Positions 8,694 to 56,300 of a stretch of 64,000 bases of DNA are shown one piece after another; within the stretch, counting starts at the first letter, position 1, and the number at the start of each line of letters is the position of its first letter. The notes under the pieces were generated by a model. The model did not search any database, was not told the DNA's origin, and saw only the letters and a list, made by a program, of their open reading frames with translations. The translations under genes and the position numbers were made by a program. The stretch comes from Apostichopus japonicus (taxonomy: Eukaryota; Echinodermata; Holothuroidea; Aspidochirotida; Stichopodidae): assembly GCF_037975245.1 (NCBI RefSeq), contig NC_092564.1, positions 15,770,984-15,834,983 of the forward strand, given 5' to 3'.

Positions 8694-9111
8694 ATGGAAA
8701 GCCGTTTTAACATTTAATAAGGAATTTCAGATATCTCGAAATAATTTCAGATATCTCAAATTAAATTACAGATATCTCCAGTTTATTTAAGATATCTACA
8801 AATAATTGCAGATATCTTAAAATCAATTTCAGATATCTCGAAATACCAGGGAATTTCAGATATCTGAAATTGAATTCGAGATATCTCGAATTCAATTTCA
8901 GATATCTCGATTTCAATTTCGGATATCTCGAATTCAATTTCAGATATCTGAAATAGAATTTTGGATATCTCGAATTCAATTTCAGATATCTCGAATTCAA
9001 TTTCAGATATCTGAAATAGAATTTTAGATATCTCGAATTCAATTTCAGATATCTCGAATTCAATTACAGATATCTGAAATTTCCCGATTAAATGTTAAAA
9101 TGGCTTTCCAT
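8694..9111. mobile_element. Foldback element 1, filled with GATATC-centred tandem repeats
   Basis: The left end ATGGAAAGCCGTTTTAACAT is repeated inverted at the right end (ATGTTAAAATGGCTTTCCAT) with one mismatch. The interior is about 20 tandem, partly inverted copies of a ~20-base unit containing AGATATCTCGAATTCAATTTC, itself built on the palindrome AGATATCT. There is no coding capacity: an open frame across it encodes only a meaningless repeating SRYLKLN-type peptide. It resembles non-autonomous foldback or MITE elements with internal satellite expansion. Confidence 0.75.
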
Positions 9112-9115
9112 ACGT

Positions 9116-9577
9116 GCCATTTTAACATTTAATCGGAAATTTATGCATATGCATTTCAGATATCTCGAATTCAATTGCAGATATCTCGAATTAAATTTCA
9201 GATATCTCAAATTAGAATTGCAGATATCTTGAATTCAATTTCAGATATCTCGAATTAAATTTCAGATATCTCGAATTAAATTTCAGATATCTGAAATAGA
9301 ATTTGAGATATCTCGAATTCAATTTCGGATATCTCGAATTCAATTTCAGATATCTCGAATTGAATTTCAGATATCTGAATTAGAATTTCAGATATCTCGA
9401 AATCTATTTTAGATATCTCGAATTCAATTTCAGATATCTCGAATTCAATTTCAGATATCTGAATTAGAATTTCAGATATCTCGAAATCTATTTAAGATAT
9501 CTCGAATTCAATTTCAGATATCTGAAATAAGAAACAATTTCAGATATCTAAAATTCCCGATTAAATGTTAAAATGGC
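9116..9577. mobile_element. Foldback element 2, same family, adjacent
   Basis: The left end GCCATTTTAACATTTAATCG is inverted at the right end (GATTAAATGTTAAAATGGC). The interior is again an array of AGATATCT-centred ~20-base units. It abuts element 1 with only four bases between, in a head-to-head arrangement. The pair may therefore be one composite element (8694-9582) whose outer ends are GGAAAGCC and GGCTTTCC and which contains a central junction of two inverted ends. Confidence 0.7.
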
Positions 9578-12653: not shown

Positions 12654-14761
12654 ATGCAAACAGAACGGCTAGCGCAGTTTTCCAAGTTTGGAAAGAAGAT
12701 CATTTGCATCGCACGAAATTACTTGTAAGTTGTAATTATAGATCCGACCAGGGAGTTGTTATAAACAACTCCCTGATCTGACCAACTGAAGCCACAGGCG
12801 TTCGCAACGTGTGACACAGTAATTATATGTAAACACTGTTGCGTACGTTGGATCTGACACCAACACATATGGTACAAATTGTAGTTGAAGTGTAGGCCTA
12901 TCATACTTATTGTAATTAGTTTCAGTTATTAATCACAGGAGAGCAAAGCCTACTTAGTAATCAGATATATCCATGCACTTGTCATGATTTCATAGGTCGA
13001 TGTAACCTTTTCTAGCATATGTAAATAATGTAGGCGTGTAACTCTAATTTTAGCAACTGCAATTTGATAATCCTTGATTTGTACTATAACAATAGTATGC
13101 TAGGTCCTGGATAGAAACAAATAAGCATGTCAGATGTGGGTCTTTACGTTGTTATTTCTGTAACACAAAGGCAAAGTTTTGTGCTGTACATGCTGCACAT
13201 ATGTACAAGATACATTGACCTATGGTTGTTCACCATCAGTGGCATCATCAGTAGATTGGTCAACAAGTTCATGGCTGACATGGAGAGCAATAAGTCCACT
13301 CACAAAAAGTCTAAAAAATTTGATTATTGGTAATCAATTTTAGCCATATCATGGCATACTTTGATGAGGGTGGGGTGGGAACTGATGATCTTTTATTCTT
13401 TTAGTCATATTTGATATATTGTATATTATATATTGTATAATAGGATATACTTCACCAGCAGCCTTAGGAAGTGTATTGTTAGTAGATAATGCCTTGGGGG
13501 TTTGGTTATATATAAGGCTATGAAGCTTTTAAATTAAATTTTGCAACCTCCAAGAAAAATAAAAATGAAAATTGTAAGAAAACTAATAACCTTCATGCAC
13601 AGTTTTGTGCACTTGACTTAAATAACAATCATTGCCAGACCTGAGTTATCCAAAGGCTCTACAATCTACCAAAGCAATCTTGCAGCTTGAATAACTTCTC
13701 AACATGTTCTTTGCATCCAGAAGTGAAAAACTGGCAAATTTACAGACACTTAAGGATGCTGGAAAGTTGGGAGAAAATGCCAGGGTTACTGTAAAGGGGC
13801 TAAATATCTAAACAAATGTGTCCCATATTATCTCCTGATAATGCAACATACAATGTGAGGTTTCACCTGTGTTATCTGCTGTGTTATCTTTGTGATTCTG
13901 AGCCTCAGTAATTCTTCCTTTTTTTGCCCTGTAGGGATCATGCCAAGGAATTAGGAAATACAGTTCCAAGTGAACCTGTCTTTTTCCTGAAACCTACAAC
14001 TGCATATCTACAGCCAGGTGCAGGTGCCATTAAGGTAAATATGAACCACAGTGGGCATTTAATTATGTTTGCCCAGTTATATTATTGGAGAGAATCACGA
14101 ATAGTGTCAGTGGAGAGACATGCTTTTGATTAACTATCTTAGAATTTCCCAATTAATGCATGTATTGACAAAATTAGTTTAAATATTCATTACATGTATT
14201 TCTTGAAATCAGTTTTGAAAATTTTAAAATTGATGAAAAATATATACACTACGAACTGCATTACCTTTTCAGATTCCGCCAGGATGTTCCAACCTTCACT
14301 TTGAAGTCGAGTTAGGAGTGGTCATTGGTAAACAAGGCTCCAACATTCCCGAGAGCACAGCGTTGGATTTTGTCGGTGGTTATACCCTAGCTCTTGACAT
14401 GACAGCCCGAGACTTGCAAGAAAAGGCAAAGAAGAAAGGTCATCCTTGGTCGATCGCTAAAGGTTTCGACACATCGTGTCCAGTCGGTCATTTCATAGCT
14501 AAGGCCGCCATTGAGGACCCTGGCAACGTTCATCTGTGGCTGAGAGTGAACGAAGAAAGTCAGCTACGTCAGGATGGCAATACCAGCAACATGATCTTTA
14601 AGATTCCAACGATCATTAGTTACATTAGCAGTTTCATGACACTAGAGGAAGGAGACTTGATATTGACCGGAACTCCGTCAGGAGTCGGACCAGTTAAATC
14701 TGGAGATGTGATAACAGCTGGCCTGGCAGAATTGGCTGAAATCAAGGTCCCTGTAGAATGA
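12654..14761 (+). CDS. FAHD1: FAHD1: acylpyruvase / oxaloacetate decarboxylase (FAH superfamily), complete, 3 coding exons
   Basis: Coding exons are 12654-12724, 13935-14034 and 14273-14761, with GT/AG junctions and consistent phases, giving about 219 aa against about 221-224 in the human protein. FAHD1 hydrolyses acylpyruvates and decarboxylates oxaloacetate in mitochondria. Family hallmarks are all present. The N-terminal GKKIICIARNY segment is followed by the catalytic-lid pair His26 and Glu29 (LDHAKE). The metal ligands are Glu68 and Glu70 (HFEVELGVV) and Asp99 (LDMTARD), and the conserved C-terminal GTPSGVGPVKSGD loop is present. I chose the ATG at 12654 (MQTERLAQFSKFGKK) because it gives the family length. 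An in-frame ATG at 12528 would add 42 residues with no counterpart in the family that I know of, so it could be upstream leader. The gene converges on DHX29, and a SINE begins almost immediately after the stop. Confidence 0.95.
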
Positions 14762-20800: not shown

Positions 20801-23800
20801 TTCAGCTGTCATCGATTACCTATGGCCACTCAGCTGAAGATGCACACATACAGTATATACCTAATGCAAACAGTCTGTTCCTGTTAAGTACCCATCTACT
20901 ATTAGACAAAACTCTTCTCTTTTGTTCTCTTATCTTGGCACGCTCGGGAATGAAAATATTCCTCTATGAGGGTCAACACACTGATTAGCAGTCATCAGTA
21001 TAGGACCAAATTGTAACACATTAAATTGCTCAAAATTTGCTCATTTCTCAAAGTATTCTCACATGTTTAGAAAGGTTAGTTAGAACAGCGTGAAAAAGTT
21101 TTGTTTGTGACTTGAACCGCAGTGGTCAATTTTTGACTATCTACCATAGTTGAGGCCTGTATTGTTGACTTTTAAGGGCCACAGTGGCATCAATCCCAAG
21201 ACGTCCTAAACATAGGTCAGACTGAAAACATTAACTCCCCCTCACTCCCTTCCCCCACCCAAAATATAATAAAATGTTTCACTTACCCTGAGTATGCTTT
21301 GAATAATGTGAGATGATCAGATGCAGCGACAGACATGGCCCTCTTAGCCTGGTTGGCTCTGTCTCTCTTTTCCAGAGGGACAATAAACGGTGATTTGTCC
21401 GTCATCGCAGCAGCTATGACAGACTGAAAGTGAAGAGAGATTCAATAATTGACATTACTGTCCTGAACATCAACTTATTATCATCGCAGCAGCTATGACA
21501 GACTGAACGTGAAAAGAGATTCAAGAATTGGCATAACTGTCATGAACATATTACTCCTTCATGTTGAAATAACTTGATAGACAATGATTAATTCCAAATT
21601 AAATGATATTACTTAACAAAAGAACTTGAGGTTTCATGATACAATTTCCAATGAGTAGATAGTTTTGGTCTGCAATATTTTGAAACATGAGATTAATATA
21701 GTCTATTTGCAGGCTTCTTGAATATTGCACATATTTAACAGAATGTCTGGTCACTATCTTTCCACTGGATACTCTCATCATTGGTCCTATCTAATGGGAA
21801 GATTCTAGACTTTTGAGAGAGAAAACCATAATCCCTGCTCTACTTAAACTAATAAAAGACTGCTCGTTATTTTGTGGGATTATAAAAGGTGAAGGGTTGG
21901 GAAATGGGGAAGCAGGAGAGGAGATGCGAGAAAGGTGAAGGTCAAAGAACTAAAGCTACATCATCGGGTACAAACTCACCACAGGTTCCAGACAACCAAA
22001 CAGAGCGGCATAAACCAACATTTTACCCACTCTCACATTGAGTGGTAAAGCTGATAAGTGGTGACCCAATGGGGTGAGCTTTGGCACCTCGGTCATGGTA
22101 CAGGCACCAACCTCTCTCAGTAAAGACATCGCATTACGAACCGCAAGAGAATCTGGAGGATCCACAGCATTCTCAAGAAATTTATCCGGTTCACCAAATT
22201 CGCATTTCTATCGAGAGAACGAGAATGAAGGTCTACGTTGGGCACTGAAGCTTTAATACTGACATACATAATTTGACATACATATTAGATAATAGTCCAG
22301 GGATTCAGTTTTGATAATTTTTGGGGGGGGGTGGGTGGGAGGGGCAGGGCATATACATCTTACAGTTATTGTCAGCAGCCTTCATCCTGTTGGGAACATG
22401 ATTCATTTTACTTTGTATTGCCAAGATAATTATATTTCTTAACCGGTGCTGTGGCCGAGTGGATAAAGGCGGTTGTATGTGAAGCAATGAGGCTTAGCAA
22501 TCGGGAGGTTAGGGGTTTGATTCCCTGCCGGGTCATAGCAAGGTGGGTTTTCATCCAATAGCATGCTACAGTTTTCCCAACAAAAACGACTTTCTAAATT
22601 GAAAAAAAAAAATCCAAATTTGAACTAAAATGTTGAATTGGAAGTCTTTCGACGTGTAAGTTGTAATCCATAAGCCCTTGCGGGTTTCTCCCACATTTGT
22701 GGTGGCTTAAGCGTTGTAAAAATAACTCCTGATTATTATTATTATTATTATTCTTAAATCCCTGATAATACTGGTAGAGTAATTTCTAGAATTCCTTAGT
22801 TTAATATATCCATGAGTCCCTTACTAGTATATGGAGACAGAGTCCCTCCAGTGGTACCCGCTGTATCTCCGGTTGGCTGTATGACCTTAACTGACTGTAT
22901 TTGTACTTTGTGAACATCCTGAAGCAGATACCATCCCTGACCCTGCCTGCTCTACCCTGTCTCTGTTTGGCACTGGCCTGTGAGATGAAAACTTCCTCCA
23001 AGGAACTCATTTTTCTTTGTTCGTTGTACCTGTTGATGAAATCAAAAGAAATCAAATTACGAACAATGCCCGGCATAGGAATCGTGCCCGCGGGGACAGT
23101 GTTCAATAAAAGTTCCACATCTCGGTAAACGTACCACCCCATAGAGATTCTGCATACATAGCCTGATATCATAACCTGGAAATCTTTAGTTTCTCAAACC
23201 TAAGATGAATGTTTTCTTTGCTATTTGATAACACAAGCAAAGATTCAAGTCTTTTGAAAAATACTGCTTTCAAATAATAAAAACAAAAAACTAGCAATTT
23301 CTGAAGCTGTCAGATTTTTGGCATGTAAATGCAACACTTACACTTGTTAGAATTAAAAAGATTTATTAATAAGTTTACTTTAACAATTTAACATTCATTC
23401 TGTAAGAAAAAAAAATCTTTGCAGGTATCTCTCATGCAATATCAAGTTGTTTTGGTTCAATTCATCGAGAAGCCGGTGATGAAATGCAAAATAACTGTTC
23501 AAATTAAAGACACACAAACCAACAAGAGTTTTGAATTGTTCAATTACCTGTTTTCCTTAACTTTACCGGTGTCAATAACAAAAACAGCATCCGGTATTGT
23601 GATTCCAGTCTCGGCAATGTTGGTGGCGAGGACGACTTTCCTCACACCACGAGGAGGTATATCAAACGCAGAGCTCTGATTGGATGATGAGAGCATTGAA
23701 TGGAGGGCAATCAAGAGGTATCTGACAAGAAAAGTAACAAAACATTTTGTACTTTCTGCCCTAAAGGAGAGACTCTGTCCGGGAGAGTCGTTGGAATAGA

Positions 23801-50300: not shown

Positions 50301-53300
50301 GGACTCTCTGCAGTGCCACTTTACAGGCACTAATAGCAATCTTTCTGCAGGTGGAGTTCATCCACACCCATTCAAGGGGGTGCAAGAAGTATTTCACTCT
50401 TGTAGGGGTAGCAATTAGTGGAGATATATTACTCTACAAACGTCACAAGCTTTTCCTTTTTCACAGAGGGGGCACCTTAAATTCATCTCTAAAAAATCAG
50501 TCTCACCTTGCCACTCCAATATTGGTTGCCGTTAACCAGCGGAATGAATGCAGGCTGCTTCCTGACCAGTTCCTCGCAATCATGCAACACTTGACCAGAG
50601 AAGTCACCCATCTGATACCTATTTTAAAAGAACAGGGTGTGTCATAACTTGAATATCATTTGCTCTGATAAACAATTCTCCGATACCAAACATGCAATGA
50701 CATCTTATATATATTTATATATATGTATACATATATATGCTTACAATACACAAACATGTGATAACCTGGAGTATGAATGCATAAGTTACCAATGTGAATT
50801 ACAGGGACGACTTGTTACATGTTAGTTAAACTTTCACTGAATAACAAGTGTATAGAAAATATCTCATATCTTACTGTAAATGATGCCACAGGGAAAGGTA
50901 GCTGGCTACGACTATGATAATACCTACCAAGTTTGAAATGTCAAAGGTTTGCTGTTTAATGCAATGTCATGTCTTTTAACAGGTTGTGACAAAAAAGTGA
51001 GGTAGAAAATAGACGCGATCAACAGAACAAGGTTTTCAGGACTTAAATACACCAACCATTATGCTATATTATGATCTTTTACATCTGTGAAAGCAACGAA
51101 AAAGTGTAAACTTTACAAAGTATCGAGAAAGAATTTAAGAATCTTTGTGTATTAACACAAGAGTCACTCTGCCTGCCTATCCCACAGCATGAATGAATCA
51201 TTTACTCATATCTCTTCCTGTCAACAATATTACAATAATATCATTTGTGCACCTTACAACATGGCTTACCTCTTCTCAAATATTTCTATGTTCAGATGGA
51301 TGCCCTCTCGTTTACTCTTCTCTCTTCGCTTGATCATTTCAAGCAATGTTCTGGAACGATAACAATGCCACAAATCAAACATAGGGTAGAAACCATTATG
51401 CTTTTGAAAAGATTGATCACATGTACATCCAAGGCCAAATTTGGACAGATTTTTCATTTACCACAATGACATAAATGACAAAATACAAAAACTTCTAATC
51501 ATTTGCAGAAAAATATACGGATAAGTTAGGTCTTATCATTCAATATCCCACAATGATAATGGACATGAAAAGTAGATACAAAAGATTGATACCTTACGTT
51601 CACAATGAGTTAGGATTAAGTTGCTCACATCTGTAAATTCCTTTACTCCACCTGGTTTATTTCACAAAAATGTAAGCTTTTTCATGTCAACCATGTTTTC
51701 ATTACTCACAATGATATTGTTTTATTCTAGACTGGGACTAAACCCCCTAAGAACAATATGAATTACTCACACTGCCTTCGTCAAGTCTCTTTTCAGTTTT
51801 AACATCTTTTCGTATGAGGCCTCATCGTTTTTCCTGTTCTTCCTGGTTTGCATTTTCTCTGTTCGCCTCCTGAAAGCCACATATGGGTTGTTGGTAGTCG
51901 AGCCATCTCGCTTCTCGCCTTTTACTTCCAGAATCAGAGCGTGACCCTACGTAGGAAGGCAATCAGAAAAATGGACAGTGAAATAGGAGAATTGACCAAA
52001 GTTCTGCAAACATAAAATCATATTTTTGTTTTGGCTGTAGCCTTGGGTCATTCTGAAACCATTTCCAAGTTTTCACATACAGAGTGACAACTTTTGAATT
52101 ACATAATGAAAACAAGACGTTTCTTGGCCACAGGTTAATTTAGAGAAAACTCTTACATAGGTAGAAAAATTGGTCGGAGCAATGGGCCAGAGAGAACCAA
52201 AATACCACAGTACCCAGAACAGAGCAGACTGCAGCGCAGGCTGGTTATGTTGATGAAGCCATAGAGGTCCTCTGCCCTTCGAGCAAGATTGTGGTCAGAT
52301 TTATTTGACAGGCTGTCAAATCTCTAGCAGGTCAGATTTTGGCCAGCTGGCTGGTTACTGAGAACTGCTAATTCTTCATTAAGCCATGATCATAACATAT
52401 CAATTGACAAGCTCATAGACTGAAAGCCAGTGATAATTTATCCGGTATCACATCGCAAATTGATGAGCAAAGTGGTTAAATTGCTGTACAAGTGCCAATT
52501 TTTATAGCAGTTTTGTACACAGAAACCATAGCATTTTATAGGAGACAAGAGTTCAGAGCCTTCAAAACTGATAGAAAAATTCGAACACTAAATTTTTCTC
52601 TGAAAGCACAAGTCTTCTTTGTAATAGTCAGCTAGGCAGTTCTGACAGATTTTGTTTACTTTTTTTCCTCTGAATTAACAGGTGGTTTGCAAAATTATCT
52701 GGCAGAGCTAGCCCAACATATAATATATGAAGACATTATGGGCAGGCACTTGCTTCACTTACCACTTTCAGACGTTTGTTCAACCAGTAGTCATACACGG
52801 ACAACGTCAAGTCTTTCTCTGAATTTACGGGTGGTTTGCAAGATTATCTGGCAGAGTTAGCCCAACATATCATATAAGAAGACATTATGGGTAGCACTAG
52901 CTTCACTTACCACTTTCAGACGTTTGTTCAACCAGTAGTCATACACGGACAACGTCAAGTCTTTCTCTGAATTTACAGGTGGTTTGCAAGATTATCTGGC
53001 AGAGTTAGCCCAACATATCATATAAGAAGACATTATGGGTAGCACTAGCTTCACTTACCACTTTCAGACGTTTGTTCAACCAGTAGTCATACACGGACAA
53101 TGTCAAGTATTTATCTGAATTTACAGGTGGTTTGCAAGATTATCTGGCAGAGTTAGCCCAACATATCATATAAGAAGACATTATGGGCAGGCACTTGCTT
53201 CACTTACCACTTTCAGACGTTTGTTCAACCAGTAGTCATACACGGACAACGTCAAGTCTTTCTCTGAATTTACAGGTGGTTTGCAAGATTATCTGGCAGA

Positions 53301-56300
53301 GTTAGCCCAACATATCATATATGAAGACATAATGGGCAGCACTAGCATCACTTACCACTTTCAGACGTTTGTTCAACCAGTAGTCATACACGGACAATGT
53401 CAAGTATTTATCTGAATTTACAGGTGGTTTGCAAGATTATCTGGCAGAGTTAGCCCAACATATCATATAAGAAGACATTATGGGCAGGCACTTGCTTCAC
53501 TTACCACTTTCAGACGTTTGTTCAACCAGTAGTCATACACGGACAATGTCAAGTATTTATCTGAATTTACAGGTGGTTTGTAAGATTATCTGGCACAGCT
53601 AGCACAACATATCATATATGAAGATGTAATGGGCAGCACTAGCTTCACTTACCACTTTCAGACGTTTGTTCAACCAGTAGTCATACACGGACAACGTCAA
53701 GTCATCATCTTCCTTCAAGATAGCTTTGGCTTCCTTAACACTCATTACCTGAATTGGGAAAAAGCAAAACAAAAAGTTTAATCTGAAGCAAATTTCAAAA
53801 CTCTTGTCACACAAAATACATTTCTAACTTACAAATTTACAATTCCTTTCATGCTCTCATTTTGTGATGATTCTTAATGGACCAAACACACAATTCTGTG
53901 TTTTGATTACAGTAATTGGCGAAGATAGTCTAATTGGCTGGAATGTTTACTGCTTTGTTTTGTTTGTTTGCAAGAGATTTGTTTGCTTTTGATCACAAAT
54001 TCAAACACACACCTTGATAACACTTCCGGAGATAACTAATGCATTGGTCTTAGTAAATTCTGTCAGGGAAAAGGGTTATGTTTCACATGTCGAATAGCAG
54101 TTAGTGACCTGTGAATTTACATTCCAATAGAAGTACGGAGAATCTCCAGTTGAACTAATCTGCTATGTTCATGACTGCATTTGTGTAGAACAATGCTCAT
54201 TTTACCTCTATGGTAAATCAACTTCAAATGTGTCCCTGACAAGAGGAAAACCACTTTGGTGGGGATATCATGATCAGTTCAATATCTTGCTTTACATGTA
54301 CAGTAAGGGAAACACTTTTGGCTGTAAAACTATTGCACTAGTTACAGTAACCCCTACCTGACCTTGTACTAATTATGCCTTAAAAGTGTCATAACATTTG
54401 GCAGTCTGTTAGTGCTTTCAAATCAGAGAAATTATCAAATTTTATTTTTACTTTTGAGATCAAAGTTCACTTGTTGAGTATAGAAAACATTCCAATAACT
54501 CACTAGGCAAATTTTCAAGGATAATCAAGACTATTTTGTAGTAGAGAAAGTGATGATTCAATTTAGAAAGGAAGGTTATTAGCCAGTGTATATTCATAGT
54601 GGCATAAATGTTCAAGCAAACATATCATCATTTCACCTGTTTCCAAAAGCATCCCAACCATAAGTTCAGAAATATGTACCAACTGTCAGTTTATTCATAG
54701 AAATATAAAAGTCATTCTTTATGACAGATATGTGACACGTCCATGTTTGGATCCTTCATTAAAAAAGAAGGGGGGGGAGGGGAACAATTTATGCAAAACA
54801 TACTAGCTATCATAAATAACATTCAAGCACAAGCTGTGTTCATCTCGCCGCAAGCCGATTAGCTTTATCCAAATTAGAAATTTAAATGCTCTGGTTCCAA
54901 GCAAGAACAATATTACCATACGATGCAAGTTCTACTGTACATTTTGCCTGTCAGACAACAGGGAACCCACCACACTTCAATGACACATCACAAAACATTA
55001 GCAGTAACTGTACCTTCTGCCCGCTGCCTTTTTCAAGACGATCCATCATTATTTCAAATTTGTAAGAAGTTAGATCAAATGCTTGAGCCTGTTTCTTCAC
55101 CCAATTTTCATCCTCTTCATCCATGTCATAGTCTGGAATGTCTTGTTCCATGCTGAGAGCTGTAATCAAAAGATAAAACAAATAAACATTGTTTGCTGAC
55201 AATATGACATCATCACTGTCATTTTTACATTGCAGGAATACAGTCAAAACAAATCTTTCTCCATGGGGGCACTGTCTTTATTTGTTCTTTCATGTCTCCC
55301 ACATGTGGTGTCCAAATCATGTGAAAACATCTACTAAACAAAAACTGTCAACAACTTTCAATCAACAATGCTTCTTAAAATGCTTCATAGTATCAACAAC
55401 TTATGAATGAATCTAAGAAGCTACAACTACTATCACTAATAAAAGCAAACGTTCAAACAAATACTCTGCACTCTTCTAGGAATAAGTGAAGCCTTTCTTT
55501 GCATACAATGACTTCCAGGAGTGTGACAAAGTGACCACAAAACTGTAACAAGATTGGGGGCAATGTTGCAGACTTATGTTATATTACACAACACTTGTCA
55601 CCAGAGTGCACACCATTTTTGTCTTAGAAAAATCCAATTTTGATCATGTTGATACTGACCTCACCTAAAAACGGCCAGAGACGGATCATTCAATTTTACT
55701 GACCGACCCAGCATGCACACAGGTGTTAATTACTTACGTTGCATATGGATGTACTGCTTGCCCTGCCGAATGTTGGCCTCGTACAACTCATCGTAATATG
55801 CTACACAGTGAGAGGCCTCTGGGGTGGGTATTACTAGATGATTTGCTGTACCATAAACCTGTTGTGCTGATATTGCCCTCTGCAGATGATGTTCCTAATG
55901 TGTGATCAAAAGAATTTATGATACTTAAAGGACTATGGGAGGATTCTGAGATTTACTAAAATGCTAGTCGTACCATACATAAAGCATGCATACACAAACT
56001 TACAGATTAGCAGTTGCTGAACATTACAAGATGCATTGAATTTCGATTTTTCATGCATAATCCGGCACGTACTAAGGATAGATACCGGTCTAAAAATGCA
56101 ATCTGCTACATAAACCTACACACTTTATAATCACACCAGGAAAAGAATGCAATAACAGCATAAGGATTCGTGAATGAAGCTAGTTCTACTAAGGGATCAA
56201 TATCTCCAACTGATAAGTAGGAATAAATGATGCAAATGTTTTCAGGCCTACAATTCCCCCACTTGTGAAAAATGACTATGCTCAAAAAATCTACTGGCTA

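Follow-up and report, generated by a model that had tools for sequence, protein, structure and literature searches.

Why should a coding exon be followed, inside its own intron, by repeated copies of its 3' end, each with a perfect 5' splice site? The question is raised by the Enhancer of polycomb gene (EPC) of the echinoderm Apostichopus japonicus, which lies on the minus strand of a 64,000-nucleotide stretch of contig NC_092564.1 (positions 15,770,984 to 15,834,983, assembly GCF_037975245.1; hereafter the window, in whose numbering local positions are given). The original prediction described the array as young, homogenised or kept for a splicing role such as decoy donors or poison exons, with growth by two-unit steps. 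In lancelet genes, minisatellites that span exon-intron boundaries have been named mirages (PMC3087553, PMC3902484). We consider it quite probable that the EPC array is a minisatellite of this type across the exon 4/intron 4 boundary, and that its copies are splice-neutral passengers.

Seven exon-anchored units in EPC

The array consists of seven head-to-tail units of 148/149 bp (c0 to c6), running from 53702 down to 52669 on the minus strand. Each unit joins the final 50 bases of exon 4 to 98-99 intron bases containing the donor, GTG/GTAAGTGA (slash, splice point). Unit c0 is the authentic 3' half of exon 4 with the start of intron 4, its donor following 53653. The exon-derived parts of the mini-copies occupy 53505..53554 (c1), 53356..53405 (c2), 53208..53257 (c3), 53059..53108 (c4), 52911..52960 (c5) and 52763..52812 (c6), all on the minus strand, with an intact donor after 53505, 53356, 53208, 53059, 52911 and 52763, respectively, as located by donor search and splice-site inspection. 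The seven donor positions given in the original prediction were thus exact, and unit alignment and Tandem Repeats Finder (TRF) confirmed six tandem mini-copies of the 3' half of exon 4. TRF delimited the array to 52668-53703 with a period of 148, 7.0 copies and 95% matches, and scored periods of 297 and 445 bp slightly higher than 148. The donor sequence is identical in 7/7 units; its sites in the array start at 52755, 52903, 53051, 53200, 53348, 53497 and 53645 on the minus strand, and two further GTAAGTGA sites occur in the window, at 21279 and 34904. As in a mirage, the units span an exon-intron boundary.

Exon 4 (53748-53653, 96 bp, minus strand) was identified as an EPC coding exon by tblastn, splice-site scoring (acceptor before 53748, donor after 53653) and a frame that stays open across the junction with exon 5. 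Its 32-residue translation matched PDB chains of Enhancer of polycomb homolog 1 (E 2.2e-5). Exon 5 (51771..51946), to which exon 4 is expected to be spliced, was placed by tblastn, splice sites and open frame, and intron 4 (51947..53652, 1706 bp, from splice sites and frame) contains most of the array. Upstream on the same strand, exons 1 (57417-57265), 2 (55894-55739) and 3 (55159-55014, with its ends placed) matched the EPC query in tblastn. The joined exons 2 to 5 reached the Pfam family EPL1 at 42.9 bits (cut-off 25.4); exons 4 and 5 alone gave no EPL1 match above the cut-off, the only Pfam match being to C2, below its cut-off.

In the genome (671,581,487 bases in 35 contigs), the exon 5 protein query matched a single place, the EPC locus. 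A search with the EPL1 family found three places, exon 3 of the window gene included. The match on contig 14 was interrupted by stops, and that on contig 20 was stronger than that of EPC exon 3. With the EPC C-terminal family, a single weak hit was obtained, which fell short of the cut-off and lay outside the window. The contig 20 match (11405087-11405503, minus strand), which is not part of the EPC gene, is a complete EPL1 domain (98 bits) within a single open frame of 526 residues. EPL1 domains are also present in other chromatin proteins.

Alternative exons are known to arise by tandem duplication (PMC9013439), and the mini-copies could be taken for nascent alternative or mutually exclusive exons. 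Mutually exclusive exons are whole exons with both splice sites and a preserved frame; here only 50 of the 96 exon bases were copied, and the authentic acceptor was not. As predicted, all six mini-copies read in phase meet the stop ACT TGA. When any of the six 56-nt mini-exons was included in a model transcript, the frame shifted and a stop followed after 3 codons. Because of this effect on the frame, we regard an origin of new exons as extremely improbable.

Homogenised interior and shuffled haplotypes

Aligning the seven units revealed one variable column among the 50 exon bases, none among the 8 donor bases that follow and 19 among the remaining 91. The exon-derived part is thus nearly unmutated, as had been noticed originally. 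Outside the exon, pairs of c1-c5 differ at 0-7 of 99 columns, and pairs including c0 or c6 at 8-14. The inner five units have been homogenised and those at the two edges have diverged; concerted evolution within the cluster, with the edges excepted, is also the behaviour of mirages. Of the earlier description of the array as young or homogenised, homogenisation therefore stands for the inner five units, and youth is doubtful for the array as a whole because of the differences in edge-unit pairs.

Two sets of linked differences can be followed along the array. The segment preceding the mini-exon, together with one exon base, forms two haplotypes, one (X) in c1, c2 and c4 and the other (Y) in c3, c5 and c6, so that the order from c1 to c6 is X X Y X Y Y. 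Two intron sites pair up in a different way (c1, c3 and c6 versus c0, c2, c4 and c5), with the order T A T A T T A from c0 to c6. All four combinations of exon-entry and intron haplotypes were found. The four-gamete test required at least three recombination intervals in one phasing and two in the other. One of the intervals (columns 7-61) covers the exon/donor core. Recombination has occurred between units, and the units are shuffled haplotypes. Such a mosaic fits a minisatellite with exchange, so the two sub-types do not follow the simple alternation that had been proposed. Nor did growth by two-unit steps receive clear support from the mosaic, even though TRF slightly favours the 297- and 445-bp periods.

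We infer that the array began when about 148 bp spanning the 5' splice site were duplicated in tandem, and that unequal exchange or conversion would later have multiplied and rearranged the units, with one exchange interval in the exon/donor core. Two unit queries searched genome-wide, in a search that skips very common words, gave 7 matches each, all in the EPC array, which at this sensitivity is a single locus. Since the unit queries matched nowhere else, a transposable-element origin was set aside.

A repeat wrongly expanded during assembly could produce a similar picture, and in the lancelet an early draft genome contained a misassembled mirage (PMC3087553). Here, the haplotypes differ between copies, the edge units stand out most from the rest, and the array is internal to a contig of 29.6 Mb; for these reasons we hold an artefact to be very unlikely. 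The copy number may still be off by one unit or more.

Splicing potential and the clean exon cores

All seven donors tie at a score of 10.6, higher than any other GT site of exon 4 or intron 4, the next reaching 6.8; this score is flattered, because the matrix was built from eight donors with that of exon 4 among them. Each mini-exon is preceded by AATTCAG. In a position weight matrix of only nine EPC acceptors (exons 3-11, positioned by eye, with exon 2 excluded), the six mini acceptors scored from -4.6 to -2.0, compared with 1.0 to 11.7 for the nine EPC acceptors in leave-one-out scoring. Their pyrimidine fraction is 0.55, versus 0.65-0.90 in the nine. Several other AG sites in intron 4 outscore the mini acceptors. 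In the models, using any of the six later donors leads to a stop 17 codons beyond exon 4. For three of the seven units, RNA folding gave z-scores of -1.75, -0.40 and -0.37, with no consistent structure.

Because the acceptors score low and the modelled products stop early, the six later donors are best regarded as probable passengers. EPC would be spliced normally, from the first, authentic exon 4 donor to exon 5; apart from this, the models lead one to expect only rare products that decay could remove. A role of the copies in splicing, as suggested in the original prediction, is thereby disfavoured, though possible.

One feature is partly unexplained by a splice-neutral minisatellite and weighs against it, namely the unusually clean exon part, with 1/50 variable columns versus 19/99 elsewhere. 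By Fisher's test, which assumes independent columns and so is compromised by recombining haplotypes, this bias gave p = 0.004 for all seven units, 0.02 without c0 and 0.17 for c1-c5; with exon and donor taken together, the values were 0.0004, 0.010 and 0.089, respectively. A rotation test that preserves clustering was weaker for the exon alone (12/149) and gave 1/149 for exon plus donor. We further simulated arrays under models that were simple, with settings of our own choice and a test of cleanness prompted by the data, accepting runs that ended with 7 copies and 15-25 variable columns and counting those with at most one exon change. Neutral runs reached this level in 2/575 cases, runs with purging only in the live exon in 8/655, and runs with selection on every copy in 174/680. 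In a cruder simulation (14-26 columns), the counts were 4/119 for neutrality and 0/125 for live-exon purging. These results suggest that the clean exon part is poorly explained by neutrality or by purging in the live exon; cleanness was unlikely under the neutral models used and more likely with selection on every copy. The sole exon change (ACG to ACA, Thr) is synonymous in the exon 4 frame and, as a single event, carries no weight. The idea that recombination cycling through the live exon kept the copies clean was dropped in view of the 8/655 and 0/125 counts.

The clean cores bear most directly on the proposal that the copies are selected as splicing elements, that is, as decoy donors or poison exons that would lower EPC output via intron retention or nonsense-mediated decay. 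In its favour are the 7/7 identical donors, the almost unchanged exon part, the simulations with selection on every copy and the early stops in all modelled products, and published retention by decoy exons uses several competing splice sites (PMC8706089). On the other side, the mini acceptors fall below the nine of EPC and below other AG sites of the intron, the exon bias loses significance without c0 and c6, a probable second array of the genome (below) varies without exon bias, and lancelet mirages are reported to leave splicing undisturbed (PMC3087553, PMC3902484). Taken together, we judge selection for splicing to be unlikely. In a more specific form, the six copies would be under purifying selection as modules of exon end plus donor, lacking good acceptors, and would together form a bank of decoys that bind U1; unequal exchange would change their number and thereby adjust how much correctly spliced EPC RNA is made. 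We think this rather improbable.

Other arrays and the relation to lancelet mirages

Tandem arrays are common in this genome. In 20 stretches of 10 kb, taken at a fixed position from each of 20 contigs (200 kb), we found 16 arrays with a period of at least 40, five of them with at least 4 copies and three with at least 6. Genome-wide counts of donor triplets were uninformative, both for GGTAAGT repeated three times (1141+1003, versus 1134+815 in the backward control) and for a second count (546+546 versus 745+502). Many of the matches listed belong to one 18-bp satellite of the type GGTAAGTATATGGACAAT, a repeated donor-like word found on contig 1 at 9.744, 11.633 and 11.672 Mb.

From the matches listed, two arrays (L025 and L026) were picked by eye and form no random sample. 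L025 (contig 1, 20,006,600-20,009,400) contains seven ACTGTAG/GTAAGTACATG donors spaced by 94 or 107 bp. Beginning with an ATG at 1171, a frame stays open over the 373 bases before the first donor, and past a candidate acceptor at 2388 it goes on in the same phase until a stop is reached (array feature span 1171-2390). Variation amounted to 8 events in 74 exon columns versus 4 in 33 intron columns (p = 1), with no exon bias. Its open frame matched no Pfam family, and for this reason we call L025 a probable, rather than proven, second exon-anchored donor array. At the edge of L026 no convincing exon was seen.

Elsewhere in the window, some 38 tandem copies of a 21-bp repeat (76% matches) occupy 8723-9523, the minus strand there being open as a repetitive peptide, and an open frame of the fumarylacetoacetate hydrolase family (Pfam PF01557, E 2.3e-53) lies at 14237-14761 on the plus strand. 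Rfam at gathering scores and ARAGORN (tRNA, bacterial code) gave no hits in the window. In the same assembly, broken COX1-like pieces on contig 29 (14745-16086 and 30842-31219) are either nuclear copies of mitochondrial DNA or part of a second mitochondrial contig; an intact COX1 (517-residue frame) is on contig 35. In that frame AAA occupies positions of conserved asparagines (TNHKDIG, GGFGNW, MNNMSFW), ATA that of a conserved isoleucine, and AGA encodes serine, a pattern which corresponds to the code of echinoderms and flatworms (table 9) and fits an echinoderm host.

Among known systems, the EPC array most resembles the lancelet mirages, as far as the two papers describe them. Lancelet loci comprise Adh3, the globins BflGb6 and BflGb9, troponin C and PGBD5 (PMC3087553, PMC3902484), of which the PGBD5 mirage was added, and that of troponin C cited, by PMC3902484. 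BflGb6 has units of 150-160 bp, six and three in two haplotypes, its inner units homogenised and its edges not, and in BflGb9 the 3' boundary of exon 2 is duplicated (157 bp; PMC3087553, PMC3902484). The EPC array shares with these loci the anatomy, splice signals in many units, a similar unit size and a homogenised interior with the edges excepted. It differs in its host, an echinoderm, in the gene, EPC being new to the list, in a donor that is intact in all seven units, and in an exon part much cleaner than the intron part. Regular splicing was judged unaffected by the lancelet mirages, cryptic use of their sites was called possible (PMC3087553, PMC3902484), and mirages were proposed as an origin of new introns (PMC3087553).

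Two other systems are more distantly comparable. Decoy exons (PMC8706089) likewise place several competing splice sites in or beside one intron, whereas the EPC copies are tandem, derive from a neighbouring coding exon and have weak acceptors. The length of an intronic variable number tandem repeat in human ABCA7 correlates with splicing (PMC5954066). The likeness to the EPC array lies in a tandem repeat inside an intron. To our knowledge, there is no sign that the ABCA7 unit carries an exon end plus donor.

The descriptions of mirages that we found concern lancelets, in a search with most subscription journals outside its reach and hence no proof of priority. Because the host of the EPC array is an echinoderm, the mirage class probably extends from lancelets to a further deuterostome phylum; the array itself is probably a known kind of homogenised exon-boundary minisatellite, in what is probably a phylum new to that kind. 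With its seven identical donors, it offers a natural test of how the cell settles on one of them. Should selection on the clean exon cores be borne out, splicing would be controlled in a new way, by a donor bank that varies in copy number.
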